Virus record (IMG/VR): IMGVR_UViG_3300021373_000551
Span: 1 to 23,405 of that record
DNA length: 23,405 nucleotides
From: a virus
Reading direction: 5' to 3' (one strand)
The translations under genes were made by a program, and so were the position numbers. The notes beneath the pieces were generated by a model. The model worked only from the letters and a program-made list of their open reading frames with translations, was not told where the DNA came from and did not search any database. This document shows, one piece after another, positions 15,559 through 20,888 of the stretch (the stretch's first letter is position 1; each line of letters begins with the position of its first letter).

Positions 15559-15637
15559 CGTATTACTCCTGTGTGGGTGTATACGATTCTTTTTCACGCA
15601 TGAATCTGTGCGAGTATTATATATACTATATAGTTAT

Positions 15638-15666
15638 ATTATACCCGTAATTTGGAGGTTTGTCAA
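15638..15666 (-). promoter_or_regulatory. Leftward sigma70 promoter for the packaging/structural operon
   Basis: On the minus strand TTGACA (15666-15661) and TATAAT (15643-15638) are both perfect consensus with a 17-bp spacer. The upstream side is A-rich (AAAAAAC before the -35), like an UP element. The predicted start is near 15631, giving about 70 nt of leader before the leader-peptide ATG. The spacer end and -10, TACGGGTATAATATA, are identical to the opposite promoter. Confidence 0.88.
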
Positions 15667-15703
15667 GTTTTTTATAACTTTTTTGCATATAAGTAAAAAA
15701 AAC

Positions 15704-15732
15704 TTGACAAGTGGCGTATCTACGGGTATAAT
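15704..15732 (+). promoter_or_regulatory. Rightward sigma70 promoter for the early region
   Basis: TTGACA at 15704-15709 and TATAAT at 15727-15732 are perfect consensus with a 17-bp spacer, preceded by an A-tract (AAGTAAAAAAAAC). The start is expected near 15739. It is divergent from the leftward promoter, with 37 AT-rich bases between the two -35 boxes. It would produce the long structured leader before the gene at 16409. Confidence 0.9.
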
Positions 15733-15739
15733 ATACTTA

Positions 15740-16337
15740 TAGCCCCCCGGGTTATATATATAGATTATAGAGCAGGTACATACATATTTATCTATGTACC
15801 CCGCTTCTAGTCCCTTTAAAGCACTTTAAAGCTGCGGCACTATCTGGTTTACATCCAATTCCCCTCCAAAATGTATAAGATTGTATATATATCCCTAGTA
15901 CCCCCCATGGCGACTTGCCCACCCCTTTAAAGCTCTATAGCTTTAAAGTGGTGGTCAAACTAATTAGACTTTTAAGTCTAATTAAATCTGCTAGTCCTTT
16001 TAAAAGCTCCATAGAGCTTCTTAAAAGACTAGCAAGTTCTTCAAAATCTCCCAAGATTCTTTAGAATCTATGGTGCGTGTGTTGAAGACTTCTAAGTCTT
16101 CCAAGATTTTTCTAGTTTACAAAACTAGAAAGTCTTTCAAACACTTCAAAGCCTTTAGGCTTATTCAAAAAACTCCCCAGTCTTCAACGACTTACAAACT
16201 TTTTAGTCTTCGACTAATTTCCCCGCCAAAGACTTTAAAAGTCTTCTAATTCTATCGTGCACACGGAAATCTTCTTTGAAGATTTTAAAGCCCAACTTAG
16301 TATTTTAATACTTTAAAACGTATTAAAATACTAAAAA
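15740..16337 (+). other. Gene-free leader holding a tandem array of stem-loops
   Basis: No credible gene is present. By eye the + strand holds a string of stem-loops: 15775-15800 (8 bp), 15814-15831 (repeated CTTTAAAG), 15919-15954 (16 bp, one mismatch, loop CTAT), 15961-15984 (10 bp), 15989-16034 (20 bp, two bulges, loop CATA), 16084-16101 (7 bp), 16109-16131 (10 bp), 16149-16162 (5 bp), 16203-16217 (6 bp), 16229-16245 (7 bp), 16267-16285 (8 bp) and 16297-16334 (15 bp perfect). Linkers are C/A/U-rich with few G (TCTCCC, CTCCCC, TTTCCCC, GCCCAAC). Several stems reuse AAGTCTTC-like words. It lies directly downstream of the rightward promoter, so it should be transcribed. It could be a regulatory leader, a stable noncoding RNA, or a packaging or replication site. 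Confidence 0.75.
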
Positions 16338-16405
16338 ATTTCTCCAAATAGAAAAGTTAAAAAGAAGTTCTTAACGAACTTTTTAACTTTTATATTTGGA
16401 GAAAT
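16338..16405 (+). promoter_or_regulatory. Long hairpin 1: buries the ribosome binding site of the gene at 16409
   Basis: The arms 16338-16364 and 16379-16405 pair in 26 of 27 positions (one G/A mismatch at 16351/16392). The apex 16365-16378 reads AAGTTC-TTAAC-GAA and, with the following CTT, forms the core AAGTTC-N5-GAACTT. The ribosome binding site GGAG (16398-16401) is paired with CTCC (16342-16345), and the start codon lies four bases after the stem. Translation should need opening or cleavage of the stem. It is a member of a three-copy family with hairpins at 18156 and 20505. Confidence 0.88.
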
Positions 16406-16408
16406 AAT

Positions 16409-16822
16409 ATGGCAACTTCAACTTTCAGCAAAATCGACTCAAACCAAATTGCTAGTAATCGTCAAGTCTATGCCGTAGCTTGCCACTTTGCTAACATTCA
16501 TGCTAAGAATCCATCAGAAAGATATGGATTGACCAAAGTGTTCAATGCTATCCTGAATAAGACTTACAGAGACCAAGATAGCTATATGACTCATGGCGAA
16601 GCCACTGAGTTTTTTGAATGGGATTGTGTTCCACCACAATTTCTTCACATGGTTTCTAAGCCAAAGGCTAAGAAGAAAGTGGTAGCTAAGAAGCCTGTAA
16701 AGACTTCTAAGACTCAGAAGAAAGCTATCCCGAAGGGAAAGGCGAAAATGACTAACACTCAGCGAATAGATTCTCTTGAATCTAAGATGGATAAAATCCT
16801 TGAGATTCTATCTGCTAAATAA
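16409..16822 (+). CDS. Early protein with a Lys-rich linker and C-terminal coiled coil, unknown function
   Basis: 137 residues. The N-terminal folded part (about 1-80) includes RYGLTKVFNAILNKTY and HGEATEFFEWDCVPPQFLHM. It is followed by a very basic linker (about 84-113: KAKKKVVAKKPVKTSKTQKK) and a terminal heptad helix (RIDSLESKMDKILEILSAK). This suggests an oligomeric nucleic-acid-binding protein, but no family is recognised. The GGAG site 7 nt before the ATG is inside the long hairpin. The gene is followed by an intrinsic terminator, so with the promoter at 15704 it forms a one-gene unit with a leader longer than the gene. Its product is a natural candidate to bind that leader; this is speculation. 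Confidence 0.9.
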   Translation: MATSTFSKIDSNQIASNRQVYAVACHFANIHAKNPSERYGLTKVFNAILNKTYRDQDSYMTHGEATEFFEWDCVPPQFLHMVSKPKAKKKVVAKKPVKTSKTQKKAIPKGKAKMTNTQRIDSLESKMDKILEILSAK

Positions 16823-16831
16823 ATCTATCTT

Positions 16832-16860
16832 GGGCAACGGATTGCCCTTTAATTTCTATT
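16832..16860 (+). terminator. Intrinsic terminator after the first rightward gene
   Basis: GGGCAA (16832-16837), loop CGGA, TTGCCC (16842-16847), then TTTAATTTCTATTTT. A compact 6-bp GC-containing stem followed by a U-rich tract is a standard rho-independent terminator. It sits 10 bases after the stop codon and just before a new -10 promoter element. Confidence 0.75.
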
Positions 16861-16867
16861 TTAACTA

Positions 16868-16876
16868 TGGTATAAT
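16868..16876 (+). promoter_or_regulatory. Extended -10 promoter TGGTATAAT
   Basis: TG-G-TATAAT is a perfect extended -10 element placed right after the terminator; no good -35 is seen 17 bp upstream. It would start transcription near 16883, close to the first codons of the next gene, and re-start the small-gene operon after termination. The same TGGTATAAT occurs before the SSB gene. Confidence 0.6.
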
Positions 16877-16879
16877 TCT

Positions 16880-17038
16880 ATGTTTTTTGTTATGTTTGAT
16901 GATAATGCGGTAGTTTGTGAGACTCAGAAAGAAGCTATAGAGCTTGTAGATTCTTTGACGATAGACGGCTATAAGTATATTACTGTTAGCCACAACCAAC
17001 CACTAGATGTAGATAACATAGAGGAGATAGAACTATGA
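16880..17038 (+). CDS. Small acidic protein of unknown function (52 aa)
   Basis: Reads MFFVMFDDNAVVCETQKEAI and continues with a helix, then YKYITVSHNQPL and an acidic end (DNIEEIEL). There is no Shine-Dalgarno before the first ATG, and the predicted promoter start falls inside the first codons, so translation may be leaderless or begin at Met5 (16892). Its stop overlaps the next start (ATGA type), and its last codons provide the GAGGAG site for that gene. No family recognised. Confidence 0.65.
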   Translation: MFFVMFDDNAVVCETQKEAIELVDSLTIDGYKYITVSHNQPLDVDNIEEIEL

Positions 17039-17121
17039 TGTATAGTTTTATTCAAGGCTTCATTTATGGATTTGTAATTGTATTTTCGTATAGATATATT
17101 GATTCACTTTTAGGAGTATAG
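17035..17121 (+). CDS. 28-residue single-span membrane peptide
   Basis: Starts ATGATG, with GAGGAG 8 nt upstream, and encodes mainly hydrophobic and aromatic residues (SFIQGFIYGFVIVFSYRYI), enough for one membrane span at about residues 4-22. It overlaps the previous stop by four bases and ends GGA GTA TAG, which gives the ribosome site of the next gene. It could insert in the inner membrane; function unknown. Confidence 0.62.
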   Translation: MMYSFIQGFIYGFVIVFSYRYIDSLLGV

Positions 17122-17125
17122 AGTT

Positions 17126-17353
17126 ATGAGTAAATATCATATAAGCAAAAATGGATATACTTTGATGAAGAATGGCGAAGCAGTACAAGTTGGTCAGGTT
17201 TTAACCTGTTTTAGAGGTGAGACTTATACTATTACTGGTGGCAATCCACCACATAAACCTAGTAGTCAGGGTAAAGTCTGGGTTACTGATGGTGACTGGA
17301 GTAGAGAGTTATATCCTTCAGTCTTTGAGTGTAAATGGGTAGAAGGAGTATAG
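17126..17353 (+). CDS. Small conserved-type phage protein with RGE...GG.PPHKPSS motif
   Basis: 75 residues, beta-rich: GYTLMKNGEAVQVGQVLTCF, RGETYTITGGNPPHKPSSQG and KVWVTDGDWSRELYPSVFEC. The combination 'RGE...I.G..PP..PSS.G.V.V ... (Y/F)PSVF' is one I have seen in small phage proteins of unknown function; it looks like a small beta-barrel domain. The GGAG site comes from the end of the preceding gene, and its own end (GGA GTA TAG) serves the following one. Its cellular role is unknown. Confidence 0.85.
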   Translation: MSKYHISKNGYTLMKNGEAVQVGQVLTCFRGETYTITGGNPPHKPSSQGKVWVTDGDWSRELYPSVFECKWVEGV

Positions 17354-17357
17354 AACT

Positions 17358-17528
17358 ATGGAATTATTTACGCATCGTGAAATAGAAGTATATACTGTTT
17401 GGGTTGATAGAATGCAAATGAGTGGTGAGATTTATAATCTACAAGAGGCTAAAGATGTCTATGACGATTGGATTCGTCTTGGCTATGAAGATGTAGATTT
17501 AATGTGTGAATATAGATTTGAGGAGTAG
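17358..17528 (+). CDS. Small protein of the VYTVWV...GYEDV family (56 aa, copy 1)
   Basis: It contains EVYTVWVDRMQMSGEIYNLQ, then a helix with EAKDVYDDWIRLGYEDVDL. A second gene at 19139 shares VYTVWV, a central helix with an alternating Ala/Asp pattern, and GYEDV, so the two are diverged paralogues. The fold is likely beta-alpha-beta. GGAG lies 9 nt before the ATG. The last codons, GAG GAG TAG, form the ribosome site of the next gene. Function unknown. Confidence 0.82.
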   Translation: MELFTHREIEVYTVWVDRMQMSGEIYNLQEAKDVYDDWIRLGYEDVDLMCEYRFEE

Positions 17529-17532
17529 AGTT

Positions 17533-17718
17533 ATGGGTAAATTTTATGTAAGAGCCGAAGAAATCTCATATAGAATTTATGAGGTTGAAGCACCCGATGC
17601 TGAAACAGCCGAAGAAATATACTTTAGTGGTAAGCCTCTAAAGTTATATTCTTATGGCGAAGAAAGCGAACAGCTTTGTAAAGTTTGGAATGCTGATGAT
17701 GTAATAATCTTGGAGTAG
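17533..17718 (+). CDS. Small acidic protein, DpnD/PcfM-like paralogue A (61 aa)
   Basis: Begins MGKFYVRAEEISYRIYEVEA, then PDAETAEEIYFSG and a beta-rich end (ADDVIILE). The pattern 'V.AEE.......VEA.DAE.AEE' matches the general shape of DpnD/PcfM-type small domains and recurs in the genes at 17723 and 18961. The start is fixed by AGGAG 7 nt upstream; a GTG further upstream lies inside the previous gene and is less likely. Function unknown. Confidence 0.83.
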   Translation: MGKFYVRAEEISYRIYEVEAPDAETAEEIYFSGKPLKLYSYGEESEQLCKVWNADDVIILE

Positions 17719-17722
17719 AACT

Positions 17723-17899
17723 ATGAAAAAATATAAAGTATATTATTCAATAGCCCATCATGGCTTTGTAGAAATTGAAGCTGATAGTAATATGGAAGCT
17801 GAAGATATAGTTTGGGATATGTTGCACGATGATGAACTCTCAGAAAAAGATACTATAGATTCAGATTATCAAGTAGATTTAAGTATGGAGATAAACTAA
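17723..17899 (+). CDS. Small acidic protein, DpnD/PcfM-like paralogue B (58 aa)
   Basis: Begins MKKYKVYYSIAHHGFVEIEA, then DSNMEAEDIVWDMLHDDEL and an acidic tail ending SMEIN. It has the same beta-beta-alpha layout as the genes at 17533 and 18961 (a K.KVY start, then V.A/I.A followed by an acidic helix). TGGAGTAGAACT precedes the ATG. The stop overlaps the next start as TAATG. Function unknown. Confidence 0.8.
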   Translation: MKKYKVYYSIAHHGFVEIEADSNMEAEDIVWDMLHDDELSEKDTIDSDYQVDLSMEIN

Positions 17900-18144
17900 T
17901 GAATAGACTTATGCAAATTTCAAACCACATGGATAGAGCTTTAGATGCTAAGGTAGTTAGATATTGTGACGAAACTCAGGTAGTTATATCAATGCTCAAC
18001 AACCCTAGAGAGGCTCTTGAAGAAGATAGAGTTTATATTGTACATGACGTTAGCTTTCTTGATGGTTGCTCTGTATTCTGGGGTCACTACGACCTAACTT
18101 TTGAACAAGCAGTAGAAAGTTTTAACTACAAAGCTAGTAAGTAA
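17899..18144 (+). CDS. Unknown 81-residue early protein
   Basis: Contains MQISNHMDRALDAKVVRYCD, TQVVISMLNNPREALEEDRV and a C-terminal part with FWGHYDLTFEQAVESF. It starts within the stop of the previous gene (TAATG), so it is likely translated by coupling, and GGAG is present 8 nt upstream. It is the last gene before long hairpin 2. No family recognised. Confidence 0.8.
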   Translation: MNRLMQISNHMDRALDAKVVRYCDETQVVISMLNNPREALEEDRVYIVHDVSFLDGCSVFWGHYDLTFEQAVESFNYKASK

Positions 18145-18155
18145 TTAAATTAAAA

Positions 18156-18213
18156 TGAAGATAAATAATTAGTAAGTAAGTTTCTTACGAACTTACTAAT
18201 TATTTATTCTTCA
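18156..18213 (+). promoter_or_regulatory. Long hairpin 2 upstream of the 204-residue gene
   Basis: The arms 18156-18177 and 18191-18213 pair over 22 bp with a single bulged base (18208). The apex reads AAGTTT-CTTAC-GAA, and with the next CTT gives the shared core AAGTTY-N5-GAACTT. The stem ends four bases before the AGGAG ribosome site (18218-18222), so the site is exposed here but close enough to be affected. The stem sequence differs from hairpins 1 and 3, while the apex is kept. Confidence 0.85.
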
Positions 18214-18228
18214 CAAAAGGAGATGGCG

Positions 18229-18843
18229 ATGTTCAAAACTCACTGTAAAGCGGTTCAAGAATACTCTCAGCGTAATGCTAACAACATGGCTGATACAGTT
18301 TTGATGGTAGTATTATCTATCCAACAAAACTGGCTAGGTGTCGGCACTCAGATGGCTGACGTTAGACTTAACAAAGCAGACTCCAGATTTCTATGGGGTA
18401 ACAAGCTAAAGACTTATCACTATCTAATGGCTAACAAGCACAAAATGTTTGCTCAAGTCAAGGCAGTGCTAGTAAGTAATAAGAACTATGATGACAGAGC
18501 AATGTCATTGATGAAGATATTCCTTAGAGTTGACGGCTTAGGTCTACCCAAAGCAGGGTTCTGCTGTCAGCTAATAGCAGGAATGGTTGGTTGTATGGAT
18601 ATACATAACATTAGAATGTATGACCTAGACCCTAAGACTTTGAAGCTCAACCCGAAACCTAAGACTGAAAAGGCTAAGCAAGCCAATGAAGACAAGACAA
18701 AAACTTATATAGATTTATGTCATCTATATGGCTGCGAGAATCTATGGAACTCATGGTGTGAAAATCTAGCCACAAAATCTAAGCGTTGGCAAGATGCTAA
18801 CCATGTATCGGAAGTCCACTATACTTACCTGATTGGAGAATAG
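18229..18843 (+). CDS. Helix-hairpin-helix (DNA glycosylase-like) early protein, function uncertain
   Basis: 204 residues from the ATG at 18229, which lies 6 nt after AGGAG; the earlier in-frame ATG at 18223 touches that site and is less likely. Mostly helical. At about 99-128, LRVDGLGLPKAGFCCQLIAG followed by MVGCMDIHNIRMY resembles the HhH-GPD element of base-excision glycosylases ('LPGIG.KTA..VL...G....VD.HV.R'), with Asp124 and His126 in the place of the catalytic Asp region. A Lys-rich segment follows. A DNA repair or DNA-binding role is inferred from this motif only; the rest is not recognised. It is preceded by long hairpin 2. Confidence 0.85.
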   Translation: MFKTHCKAVQEYSQRNANNMADTVLMVVLSIQQNWLGVGTQMADVRLNKADSRFLWGNKLKTYHYLMANKHKMFAQVKAVLVSNKNYDDRAMSLMKIFLRVDGLGLPKAGFCCQLIAGMVGCMDIHNIRMYDLDPKTLKLNPKPKTEKAKQANEDKTKTYIDLCHLYGCENLWNSWCENLATKSKRWQDANHVSEVHYTYLIGE

Positions 18844-18845
18844 TT

Positions 18846-18971
18846 ATGAGTAGAGCTGAATTTTTAGAGTGGTTAGATACTTGTCCAGTAGAGAATCATG
18901 TATGTATAGATTCTACTGAAAGCATTGGAATTATATTTTATACAAGCGAGGAAGATAGCGATGAAGACTAA
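18846..18971 (+). CDS. 41-residue acidic protein of unknown function
   Basis: Reads MSRAEFLEWLDTCPVENHVC, then a short beta segment (IGIIFYT) and an acidic end SEEDSDED. The ribosome site GGAG lies in the last codons of the previous gene. It overlaps the next gene by 11 bases. No family recognised; the good start signal and tight packing support it. Confidence 0.7.
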   Translation: MSRAEFLEWLDTCPVENHVCIDSTESIGIIFYTSEEDSDED

Positions 18972-19146
18972 ATTTAAAGTTTATGTGATTGAAGAAATGG
19001 AAAGTAGTTATATTGTAGAGGCTGAAAGCATAGCTGATGCTGAAAGAAAGATGTTTGAAGGAGACTTTGACGAAAGCACTCAAGAAGTTGTAGATGTATA
19101 TGACTCTAGAATAGTAGACGTAGATGAGGTTGTAGAAGATGAATGA
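18961..19146 (+). CDS. Small acidic protein, DpnD/PcfM-like paralogue C (61 aa)
   Basis: Begins MKTKFKVYVIEEMESSYIVE and continues AESIADAERKMFEGDFDE with an acidic end. The KFKVYVIEE...VEAESI.DAE pattern matches genes 17533 and 17723. GAGGA precedes the ATG by about 8 nt; an earlier alternative start at 18925 lies inside the previous gene and has no such site. Function unknown. Confidence 0.82.
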   Translation: MKTKFKVYVIEEMESSYIVEAESIADAERKMFEGDFDESTQEVVDVYDSRIVDVDEVVEDE

Positions 19147-19282
19147 AGTCTATACAGTTTGGGTTGGCGGTGTTGAAGCTAACCCCTATCCAGTAGCTTT
19201 AGACGTAGCCTACGATATAGCTGATGAATACATTGGTCAGGGCTATGAAGATGTTGAAATCGAGGAGATAAAACATGACTGA
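19139..19282 (+). CDS. Small protein of the VYTVWV...GYEDV family (47 aa, copy 2)
   Basis: Begins MNEVYTVWVGGVEANPYPVA and ends GQGYEDVEIEEIKHD. 'YTVWVGG.E' plus 'GY.DV.IE' is a pattern I recall from small marine phage proteins. It is a paralogue of the gene at 17358. It overlaps the previous gene by 8 bases and the next by 8. GAGG lies 9 nt before the ATG. Confidence 0.82.
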   Translation: MNEVYTVWVGGVEANPYPVALDVAYDIADEYIGQGYEDVEIEEIKHD

Positions 19283-19439
19283 TAAAGAATTTATTGAAGC
19301 AGTATTCGAAGAAGTCTATGGCGATAATGCTATCAACAGAGGCTTCAGCAAGCAAGATGTAATTGAAGAATTACAGAACATGAATAACATTATCGGTGGT
19401 TATGAAAATAGCGAAACCCATGTATGGCATGAGGTATAA
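19275..19439 (+). CDS. Unknown 54-residue early protein
   Basis: Begins MTDKEFIEAVFEEVYGDNAI and then NRGFSKQDVIEELQNMNNII, mostly helical and acidic. GAGGAG lies 7 nt before the ATG, within the previous gene. No family recognised. Confidence 0.75.
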   Translation: MTDKEFIEAVFEEVYGDNAINRGFSKQDVIEELQNMNNIIGGYENSETHVWHEV

Positions 19440-19443
19440 AACT

Positions 19444-19620
19444 ATGAGTAAAGAATATAGTATAGCAGTATGGAACATCCAGTTCTATCGACAAGACGAA
19501 GACGGTAACGAAGAACTAGATGAAAACGGTAACATTAAACTTTATGAAGCTGACTGGTATGACTGTAGTTATTTAGCTGATGGAATTGAATTTGAAGACT
19601 TACAAGAGGTGAAACAATGA
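19444..19620 (+). CDS. Unknown 58-residue early protein
   Basis: Begins MSKEYSIAVWNIQFYRQDED and contains an acidic turn with two DENGN-like loops (EDGNEELDENGNIKLYEADW). The start at 19444 has GAGG 9 nt upstream; a longer in-frame start at 19396 falls inside the previous gene. The stop overlaps the next ATG (ATGA). Function unknown. Confidence 0.78.
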   Translation: MSKEYSIAVWNIQFYRQDEDGNEELDENGNIKLYEADWYDCSYLADGIEFEDLQEVKQ

Positions 19621-19919
19621 ACCTACAAGATATGTTAGACGAATATATAAACTTTAAAATACAAGAAGTCCTTGAAGTAGCTTTGTCCAACAAGAAAAAG
19701 ACGATAACCAAAGAGTTAGAATCTGTTCGAGGTTGGCTTAGAGAACTAGAATATACCCTAGACGATGTGAAAACTCTATCCGATGAGAATGAGTATAACA
19801 TTGGAGACTTTGAAACAAGAATCAGTAAACTTGAAGACGATACTGTACAGCTAAATCAAGGTGTAATAAAGTCTCAGGTTCGAGAGATTCTAACTAAATC
19901 TAAACTAACTGTGGAGTAA
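19617..19919 (+). CDS. Coiled-coil early protein (100 aa), unknown function
   Basis: Almost entirely helical with heptad spacing (MLDEYINFKIQEVLEVALSN, ELESVRGWLRELEYTLDDVK, RISKLEDDTVQLNQGV), likely forming a long coiled coil. It begins within the stop of the previous gene and has GAGG about 9 nt upstream. No enzymatic motif. It could bridge other phage or host proteins; unrecognised. Confidence 0.82.
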   Translation: MNLQDMLDEYINFKIQEVLEVALSNKKKTITKELESVRGWLRELEYTLDDVKTLSDENEYNIGDFETRISKLEDDTVQLNQGVIKSQVREILTKSKLTVE

Positions 19920-19923
19920 AGCT

Positions 19924-20163
19924 ATGGAGCTTCCAACCCTAGAAGAGTTTGAAAAAACTTGTGAAAAACATTTGTGGCTGTTCATGCTAGAACCAGACTT
20001 GACTAGAGCTATGGAAGGCTTGAAGCTATATCACTATATCCAAGATGTTATCAAGCATGGTGGCGGTAAGTATAAGCAGATACACCGCAGAGCCTACGAA
20101 AAATTTATTGACGAAACTAAGGAGAATGGAGATGACTTCCGATTCCAAAGAAGCTCTAATTGA
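19924..20163 (+). CDS. Unknown 79-residue early protein
   Basis: Begins MELPTLEEFEKTCEKHLWLF and contains YHYIQDVIKHGGGKYKQIHR, helical with a basic C-terminal half. GGAGTAAAGCT precedes the ATG, the junction pattern seen across this gene cluster. Its last 32 bases overlap the next gene in another frame. Function unknown. Confidence 0.8.
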   Translation: MELPTLEEFEKTCEKHLWLFMLEPDLTRAMEGLKLYHYIQDVIKHGGGKYKQIHRRAYEKFIDETKENGDDFRFQRSSN

Positions 20164-20320
20164 AAAGGTCTTTGAACAGTTAATAAAAGACTTTAGAGAC
20201 AAAGAATATGCACCGATTTATGAGTTGCTGAATCATGTACCGACCAATACACTTAATGGCTTTTTAGCCGAGGTAGAATTTTATGAGAAGCTATTTTCCA
20301 GAGACGATGTGGAGAGTTGA
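20132..20320 (+). CDS. Unknown 62-residue early protein
   Basis: Begins MTSDSKEALIEKVFEQLIKD and includes LLNHVPTNTLNGFLAEVEFY. The ATG at 20132 is chosen because AAGGAG is 7 nt upstream; a much longer in-frame start at 20045 lies deep in the previous gene and encodes an unconvincing N-terminus. It overlaps genes on both sides. Confidence 0.77.
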   Translation: MTSDSKEALIEKVFEQLIKDFRDKEYAPIYELLNHVPTNTLNGFLAEVEFYEKLFSRDDVES

Positions 20321-20471
20321 TAAACTAAATACATCTAGTTCTAAGCCGAGCTATACTACAGATATAGAAGATGCTAAGAAACTAGGTGAAGCCTATGGTG
20401 GTGCTTATATTATCACACAGCTCAAGGGCGATAGACTTAAAGAAGAGATGAGAGGATTACATGAACAGTAA
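20283..20471 (+). CDS. Unknown 62-residue early protein
   Basis: Contains DIEDAKKLGEAYGGAYIITQ and LKGDRLKEEMRGLHEQ, a plausible small alpha/beta domain. The ATG at 20283 has GAGG 9 nt upstream; an alternative ATG at 20307 would give 54 residues and reduce the overlap with the previous gene to 14 bases. It is the last gene before long hairpin 3. Confidence 0.7.
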   Translation: MRSYFPETMWRVDKLNTSSSKPSYTTDIEDAKKLGEAYGGAYIITQLKGDRLKEEMRGLHEQ

Positions 20472-20504
20472 ATACATATTAGAATGTATATTATAATATA
20501 TAAA

Positions 20505-20577
20505 ATTAACTTAATAATCTTATAAGTTAATAAGAAGTTCAGTATGAACTTATTAACTTATAAGATATTAAGTTAGT
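20505..20577 (+). promoter_or_regulatory. Long hairpin 3 in a 162-base gap
   Basis: The arms 20505-20534 and 20549-20577 pair over about 28 bp, with one bulged A (20517) and one G/T pair. The apex 20535-20548 reads AAGTTC-AGTAT-GAA, and with CTT gives the core AAGTTC-N5-GAACTT. It is the most stable member of the three-hairpin family and lies about 57 bases before the next ATG. A TATAAT without a good -35 lies just before it (20492-20497). A second small hairpin (ACAAGT/ACTTGT, about 20584-20601) with a run of T further down follows. Confidence 0.88.
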
Positions 20578-20633: not shown

Positions 20634-20888
20634 ATGGAAACTTTATTTAACTTTGTAGCATCAGCAGTACATTCACTCGTTTTTAGCGGTAAGAAAAACG
20701 GCAAACTATTTGGCAAGTCTTTTATTGTTAGACGTAGAAGTTCTAAGAACCGCTTTGAAGTTAGCAAAGGCGAGTGCTTCAACATTCTACACTGTTACAA
20801 ATGGGCTTTTTATTTACAGCACAAAGGCTCAAGAGCTATCAGCTTTAACAACATCAAAGACATCAACGGCATTGAAGGAGTACAGTAA
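20634..20888 (+). CDS. Unknown 84-residue basic early protein
   Basis: Begins METLFNFVASAVHSLVFSGK, then a basic beta-like part (LFGKSFIVRRRSSKNRFEVS) and a C-terminal part ending NNIKDINGIEGVQ. It differs from the acidic neighbours upstream. AAAGG lies about 10 nt before the ATG, and the stop overlaps the next start (TAATG). No family recognised. Confidence 0.78.
   Translation: METLFNFVASAVHSLVFSGKKNGKLFGKSFIVRRRSSKNRFEVSKGECFNILHCYKWAFYLQHKGSRAISFNNIKDINGIEGVQ

Follow-up and report, generated by a model that had tools for sequence, protein, structure and literature searches.

Hairpins with a kept bulged tip and freely changing stems precede early genes of uncultured marine podoviruses and likely serve RNA processing or control

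The 23,405-base virus record IMGVR_UViG_3300021373_000551, analysed here over its whole length (the window), comes from an uncultured marine podovirus of the HMO-2011 type, of which it is a fragment. Its portal protein and the portal of Pelagibacter phage HTVC115P are 60% identical; HMO-2011-type phages supply the remaining best matches. Structural genes run leftward and the early region runs rightward, encoding a DUF932 protein, a MazG-like protein, a gp2.5-like single-stranded DNA-binding protein (SSB) and a T7-type primase/helicase. Three long hairpins in this early region are the subject of this work (Table 1). A first-pass annotation of the sequence had proposed that they divide the rightward genes into blocks, and the layout bears this out, with blocks starting at 16409, 18223 and 20634. 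Hairpin 2 begins 12 nucleotides (nt) past the stop codon of the gene at 17899-18144 and has AGGAG and the ATG of the next gene right behind it; hairpin 3 is separated from the next ATG by 56 nt. A rightward transcript from the consensus sigma-70 promoter ahead of them would read through all three.

Table 1. Hairpins, downstream genes and promoter of the rightward early region
Feature	Position	Strand	Description
Hairpin 1	16338..16405	+	27-position outer stem (26 Watson-Crick, 1 G.A), 3-nt bulge AAG, inner TTC.GAA, loop TTAAC
Hairpin 2	18156..18213	+	~22 bp, 4-5 nt bulge TAAG(T), loop (C)TTAC
Hairpin 3	20505..20577	+	~30 bp in two segments, 3-nt bulge AAG, inner TTC.GAA, loop AGTAT
Companion hairpin	16297..16334	+	directly upstream of hairpin 1; ends TTAGTA...TACTAA
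Gene A, 137 aa	16409..16822	+	start of translation buried in hairpin 1
206-aa gene with conserved GLGxxKAGF motif	18223..18843	+	downstream of hairpin 2
84-aa gene	20634..20888	+	downstream of hairpin 3; followed by the DUF932, MazG-like, gp2.5-like SSB and T7-type primase/helicase genes
Consensus sigma-70 promoter	15704..15732	+	TTGACA-17-TATAAT, 12/12; likely origin of the rightward transcript

The positions and pairing first described for the three hairpins were confirmed by folding. Minimum free energies of hairpins 1, 2 and 3 were -29.4, -24.2 and -31.2 kcal/mol, as against shuffle means of -8.5, -7.0 and -9.2 (z = -9.1, -7.7 and -8.2), and 0 of 200 shuffles folded as well. All three share one tip anatomy: a bulge of 3-5 nt on the 5' side, three pairs TTC.GAA and a loop of 4-5 nt, with TTT.GAA in place of TTC.GAA in one register of hairpin 2. 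The near identity of the tips also held up: the + strand of the record has three matches to AAGTTY-N5-GAACTT, and the backwards control pattern has none. Because the bulge repeats the last stem bases (AAG after AAG, or TAAG after TAAG), it can slide between two positions. The slipped register that had been proposed is real, although the 3-4 nt bulge and 5-nt loop ascribed to every tip do not fit hairpin 2, where both bulge and loop measure 4-5 nt depending on the register. The single G.A mismatch of hairpin 1 is located below the bulge.

Relatives were collected as IMG/VR contigs fetched with the genes downstream of hairpins 2 and 1 as queries. Most close relatives carry hairpins at identical gene borders with different stems, and orthologous sites within the HMO-2011-type group retain site-specific stems. 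When 16 diverse hairpins were aligned, changes on both sides were seen at 13 of the 14 outer pairs, and 96% of alignment cells were paired; shuffles gave 69%, and sliding the partner gave 26-46%. In nine site 1 hairpins both sides had changed at 16 of 26 pairs, with 99.6% of cells paired. Such very strong covariation upholds the first-pass view of a kept structure rather than a copied DNA repeat. The tip varies in the same way, since its versions at site 1 (AAG-TTC...GAA, AAG-TCA...TGA and AAG-CTC...GAG) differ by paired changes. A covariance model, the search proposed at the outset, found two to eight copies in most of 21 records, grouped in the early region; its opposite-strand matches scored lower and were mostly palindromic shadows at the same positions.

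The element extends beyond this group. A pattern scan with TAGTRAGTTCTTACGAACTA matched 86 stretches in IMG/VR. Many of the loci that it added come from a second group of podoviruses, with a portal closest to HTVC027P/HTVC023P and with stems that bear no relation to those of the HMO-2011-type group. Sixty-nine distinct stems carry the first set of tips. A second tip, GTAGAGTATCTTACGATAC, was found in 62 IMG/VR stretches on 49 distinct stems, likewise just upstream of genes; its carriers include L275 (G020), L274 (G018), L326, L334 and L366. A structural scan of carriers revealed yet other tips, whose bulge likewise lies in the 5' arm as read on the sense strand. The tip alleles thus recorded are TRAG-TTC-TTAC-GAA, GTAGA-GTATC-TTAC-GATAC and AAG-TTC-N5-GAA, and the two groups perhaps share this tip system because of related hosts. 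As a marker, the loose tip alone, AAGAAGTTYNNNNNGAACTT, was discarded, as nearly all of its 120 stretches in viral contigs were stemless and were attributed to chance.

Outside these contigs the tip was absent. No match to TAGTRAGTTCTTACGAACTA occurred in 84,980 bacterial and archaeal genomes, and no true copy was found in 50,697 phage records at BLAST sensitivity. The isolates HTVC115P, 104P, 103P, 033P and HMO-2011 had no hairpin copy, HTVC023P, HTVC027P and CRP-902 had none in the 50 kb of each that was covered, and the DSL-LC04 phage record (host listed as Gammaproteobacteria) had neither tip in the 50 kb covered. The expectation of same-tip hairpins at matching positions was therefore borne out in many IMG/VR relatives but in no cultured one. 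The hairpins are also missing from more distant contigs (L155-L161, L163-L165, L176-L181, L183-L190 and L192). Rfam returned nothing over its gathering threshold, and its sub-threshold matches at the hairpins were microRNA-precursor models.

Placement was counted over 94 distinct placements. A Shine-Dalgarno-led ATG gene start follows within 150 nt in 85 (median 21 nt), and the preceding gene ends within 140 nt in 71 (median gap 13 nt). Copies occupy the early region in the same orientation as the genes they precede, and their bulge is in the 5' arm of this sense strand; G006 has six between consecutive early genes, and G018 and G020 have seven to eight. In both marine podovirus groups, long sense-strand hairpins with nearly perfect, freely changing stems and a kept asymmetric tip separate successive early genes. 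Two roles were rejected for them: an intrinsic terminator (there is no U-tract, and none is listed at the three hairpins) and a universal partner of a TTGACA promoter box (present at some first copies only, at variable spacing).

At site 1 of the window and of 14 other sequences, the 3' arm includes the Shine-Dalgarno sequence of the gene whose ATG lies 3 nt past the stem. The probability that this Shine-Dalgarno is unpaired is 0.00 in the full hairpin and 0.4-0.85 without the 5' arm. AAGGA and TTGGAG versions both occur, each with a matching 5' arm. This burial is confined to site 1, as sites 2 and 3 have the ribosome-binding site outside the stem.

Other features surround the three hairpins. 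The rightward promoter has a divergent partner at 15638-15666, also TTGACA-17-TATAAT and 12/12, and both promoters, with their 17-nt spacers, sit within a single 48-nt inverted repeat at 15629-15741; the pair would drive the left and right genome arms. The leader at 15800-16340, of ~600 nt, is crowded with short palindromes (CTTTAAAG, AAGACTT/AAGTCTT and AAGCTC..GAGCTT), and the matching region of relatives L136, L144 and L151 holds similar yet different perfect hairpins; it is possibly a structured leader RNA or an origin. The companion of hairpin 1 recurs in relatives as ~18 bp with changed stem sequences and an ATAAA loop. Just 3' of gene A, at 16832-16847, is an intrinsic-terminator-like hairpin with a T-rich tail. 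The 206-aa protein and its GLGxxKAGF motif are common to both phage groups (L264:2675-3271 in the second); Pfam and PHROG gave no match to it, and a host search with it returned one gammaproteobacterial contig of a metagenome-assembled genome, at 32% identity, from which the tip is absent.

Overall, the hairpins have the look of a phage-wide system by which a long mRNA would be cut or controlled gene by gene. We give about an even chance to their being cis-acting RNA processing or control sites that punctuate an early polycistronic transcript, comparable to T7 RNase III sites with a specifically recognised tip added. A protein would read the tip, made up of a short helix, a small loop and a sliding purine-rich 5' bulge, and at a set distance from the tip the stem would be cut by a nuclease specific for double strands, in the simplest case host RNase III. 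The transcript would thereby be divided into one mRNA per early gene block, each with a defined 5' end, and a cut at site 1 would free the Shine-Dalgarno, so that gene A would be translated from processed RNA only. The stems, of about 16-30 bp, would suit RNase III, given a reported minimum target of 22 nt (PMC5371410). A mid-stem mismatch at a fixed distance, as a cleavage mark, was considered and dropped, being scattered over 5-16 bp in 36 stem families and fixed in one lineage only.

Several observations weigh against such processing. A search with the Pfam RNase III domain found no phage-encoded enzyme in 13 hairpin-bearing records, so the nuclease would have to be the host's; and as bacterial RNase III, to our knowledge, does not normally need a conserved tip, an extra tip-reading factor must be added. 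The same genes are kept, at 46-77% identity, by relatives L176-L190, with a site 1 hairpin retained only in L182 and L191; the element is dispensable to that gene set, because these relatives keep it without the hairpins. (In the hairpin-less L176-L181 and L183-L190, of the same gene order, a conserved TTGACA-17-TAGCTT promoter stands before gene A instead.) In HTVC023P-type contigs (L241, L244, L260, L262 and L264), the first early hairpin often follows a TTGACA box by ~10-15 nt, and the early promoter may start transcription inside that hairpin. G.U pairs hardly occur in the first tip set and show no excess over A.C (8 and 5 in 1,400 positions). Finally, the closest hairpins (alignment A4 and the site 2 set) are distinguished solely by paired changes, A-U to U-A double transversions among them, and part of the pairing may come from DNA templating, that is, templated correction between the arms. 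Kept pairing as a mark of selection had in this respect been overstated, as near-identical hairpins differ just as such correction would make them.

This last point touches two alternatives. Templated correction can perfect palindromes, the paired changes are seen, and the leader is full of further palindromes, all of which would be in keeping with chance or mutational palindromes without function. We regard this as very improbable, as the bulged tip recurs at gene borders in two phage groups, on dozens of stems unrelated to one another, and never changes side; the kept bulge is the best evidence of selection, because templated copying of an arm would erase it. Less remote, yet still improbable, is a palindrome extruded from DNA as a hairpin or cruciform for promoter opening, replication or recombination. 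The virion RNA polymerase of phage N4 uses hairpin promoters, some first copies overlap a TTGACA promoter, and the stems are almost purely Watson-Crick, with arms that change together, often by double transversions. The internal copies, by contrast, have no TTGACA box or other promoter elements and fit tightly between a stop codon and a ribosome-binding site. The second tip set moreover tolerates G.U and not A.C (14 to 0), as sense RNA pairing predicts; both sets together give 22 to 5, counts that are not all independent. A T7-type RNA polymerase (PF00940) was not detected in 13 records, but control genomes gave no match either, and the N4-type polymerase was not searched for. The stop-to-ribosome-binding-site position, the sense orientation, the preference for G.U over A.C and the UUAC/UAAC tetraloops, which we take to fit the GNRA-like UNAC class, argue for RNA.

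An RNA element need not be cut. The hairpins might be operators whose bulged tip is bound by a protein that controls translation, mRNA stability or processive antitermination, as with lambda boxB/nut or HK022 put. We consider this rather unlikely, while ranking it above the DNA-level reading. A bulge, a short helix and a small loop are a common protein-binding form, the tip is kept as a shape with allele-like variants (TTC.GAA, TCA.TGA, CTC.GAG; GTATC.GATAC), and copies stand directly before translation starts; boxB-like boxes, however, need no stem of 20-30 bp beneath them. Nor does any candidate protein follow the carriers specifically: DUF932 was tried as the cognate protein and rejected, being encoded in 12 of 13 carrier records but also in hairpin-less relatives. 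That the hairpins are shuffling cassettes, stem-loops serving as exchange points for early genes at their borders, is quite improbable. Copies in G018, G020 and G007 share stem bases, paralogous gene-plus-hairpin units recur, and presence varies among relatives with the same genes. Against exchange of this kind, the stems of HMO-2011-type orthologous sites stay specific to their site, unrelated stems offer little homology, and the copies have no terminator and mostly no promoter, unlike the PeSL elements of T4-type phages, which place a terminator stem-loop and a sigma-70 early promoter in each intergenic region. The likeness to PeSLs is that of repeated stem-loops at early gene borders; the marine hairpins lack the U-tract, and TTGACA accompanies some first copies only.

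For RNA processing or control, phage T7 is a close parallel, with 10 RNase III sites (PMC9135205); the work on these sites listed in PMC9018771 includes Saito and Richardson (1981). The parallel drawn by the first-pass annotation holds for the anatomy: in both cases long hairpins (about 20 bp or more) lie between early-operon genes, on the sense strand, several per genome. It does not extend to the tip. The marine hairpins share a sequence-conserved bulged tip across two groups, in up to eight copies and maybe at nearly every early gene, whereas we know of no sequence-specific tip that T7-type RNase III sites require. Tip conservation lowers the case that the element is a T7-type site, not that it works like one.

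Cutting that uncovers a ribosome-binding site also has precedent. In Staphylococcus aureus cspA mRNA, RNase III cuts within a long leader hairpin and exposes the Shine-Dalgarno, with lambda N mentioned alongside (PMC4419217). Site 1 resembles this, as its hairpin hides the ribosome-binding site and cutting would expose it; hairpins 2 and 3 do not. Hairpins of the T4 genes e, soc, 49 and I-TevI sequester ribosome-binding sites, and a late promoter in the 5' arm gives active RNA (PMC3014915). The start site of read-through RNA is hidden in a helix there as at site 1, where no 5'-arm promoter is evident. Cluster K mycobacteriophages carry ESAS, which are linked to a 13-bp SAS and have conserved 17-bp arms around a spacer that varies (4-13 bp); their function is given as unknown, and they were not found in the host genomes examined (PMC3203893). 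Both are repeated inverted repeats just upstream of gene starts, of some non-structural genes in the case of ESAS, but the marine hairpins are the inverse, varying the arms and keeping the apex, without SAS.

We found no paper describing the element; a search combining HMO-2011 and hairpin gave none, and in the paper on the HMO-2011 group promoters, terminators, RNases and non-coding elements go unmentioned. It is a real, widespread and apparently undescribed structured element that likely functions in RNA processing or control. With somewhat less than even confidence, we propose that it belongs to an RNA recognition system of uncultured marine podoviruses that is new to description, in which an allelic, structure-specific tip, read by a host or phage factor, would switch or process every early gene of one transcript separately. 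Yeast Rnt1p addresses its substrates via tetraloops; if a specific RNase III or a partner does read the tip, this would be substrate addressing by apex, with free stems, in a bacterial virus. Uncultured phages with a common host might also be grouped with the aid of their tip sequences. HMO-2011-type phages are reported to be dominant and broadly distributed (PMC9038755). For them and the HTVC023P-type phages, the element offers a concrete, testable handle on the timing of gene expression: a single motif with natural stem variants by the dozen, and hairpin-free relatives in which the genes are kept.

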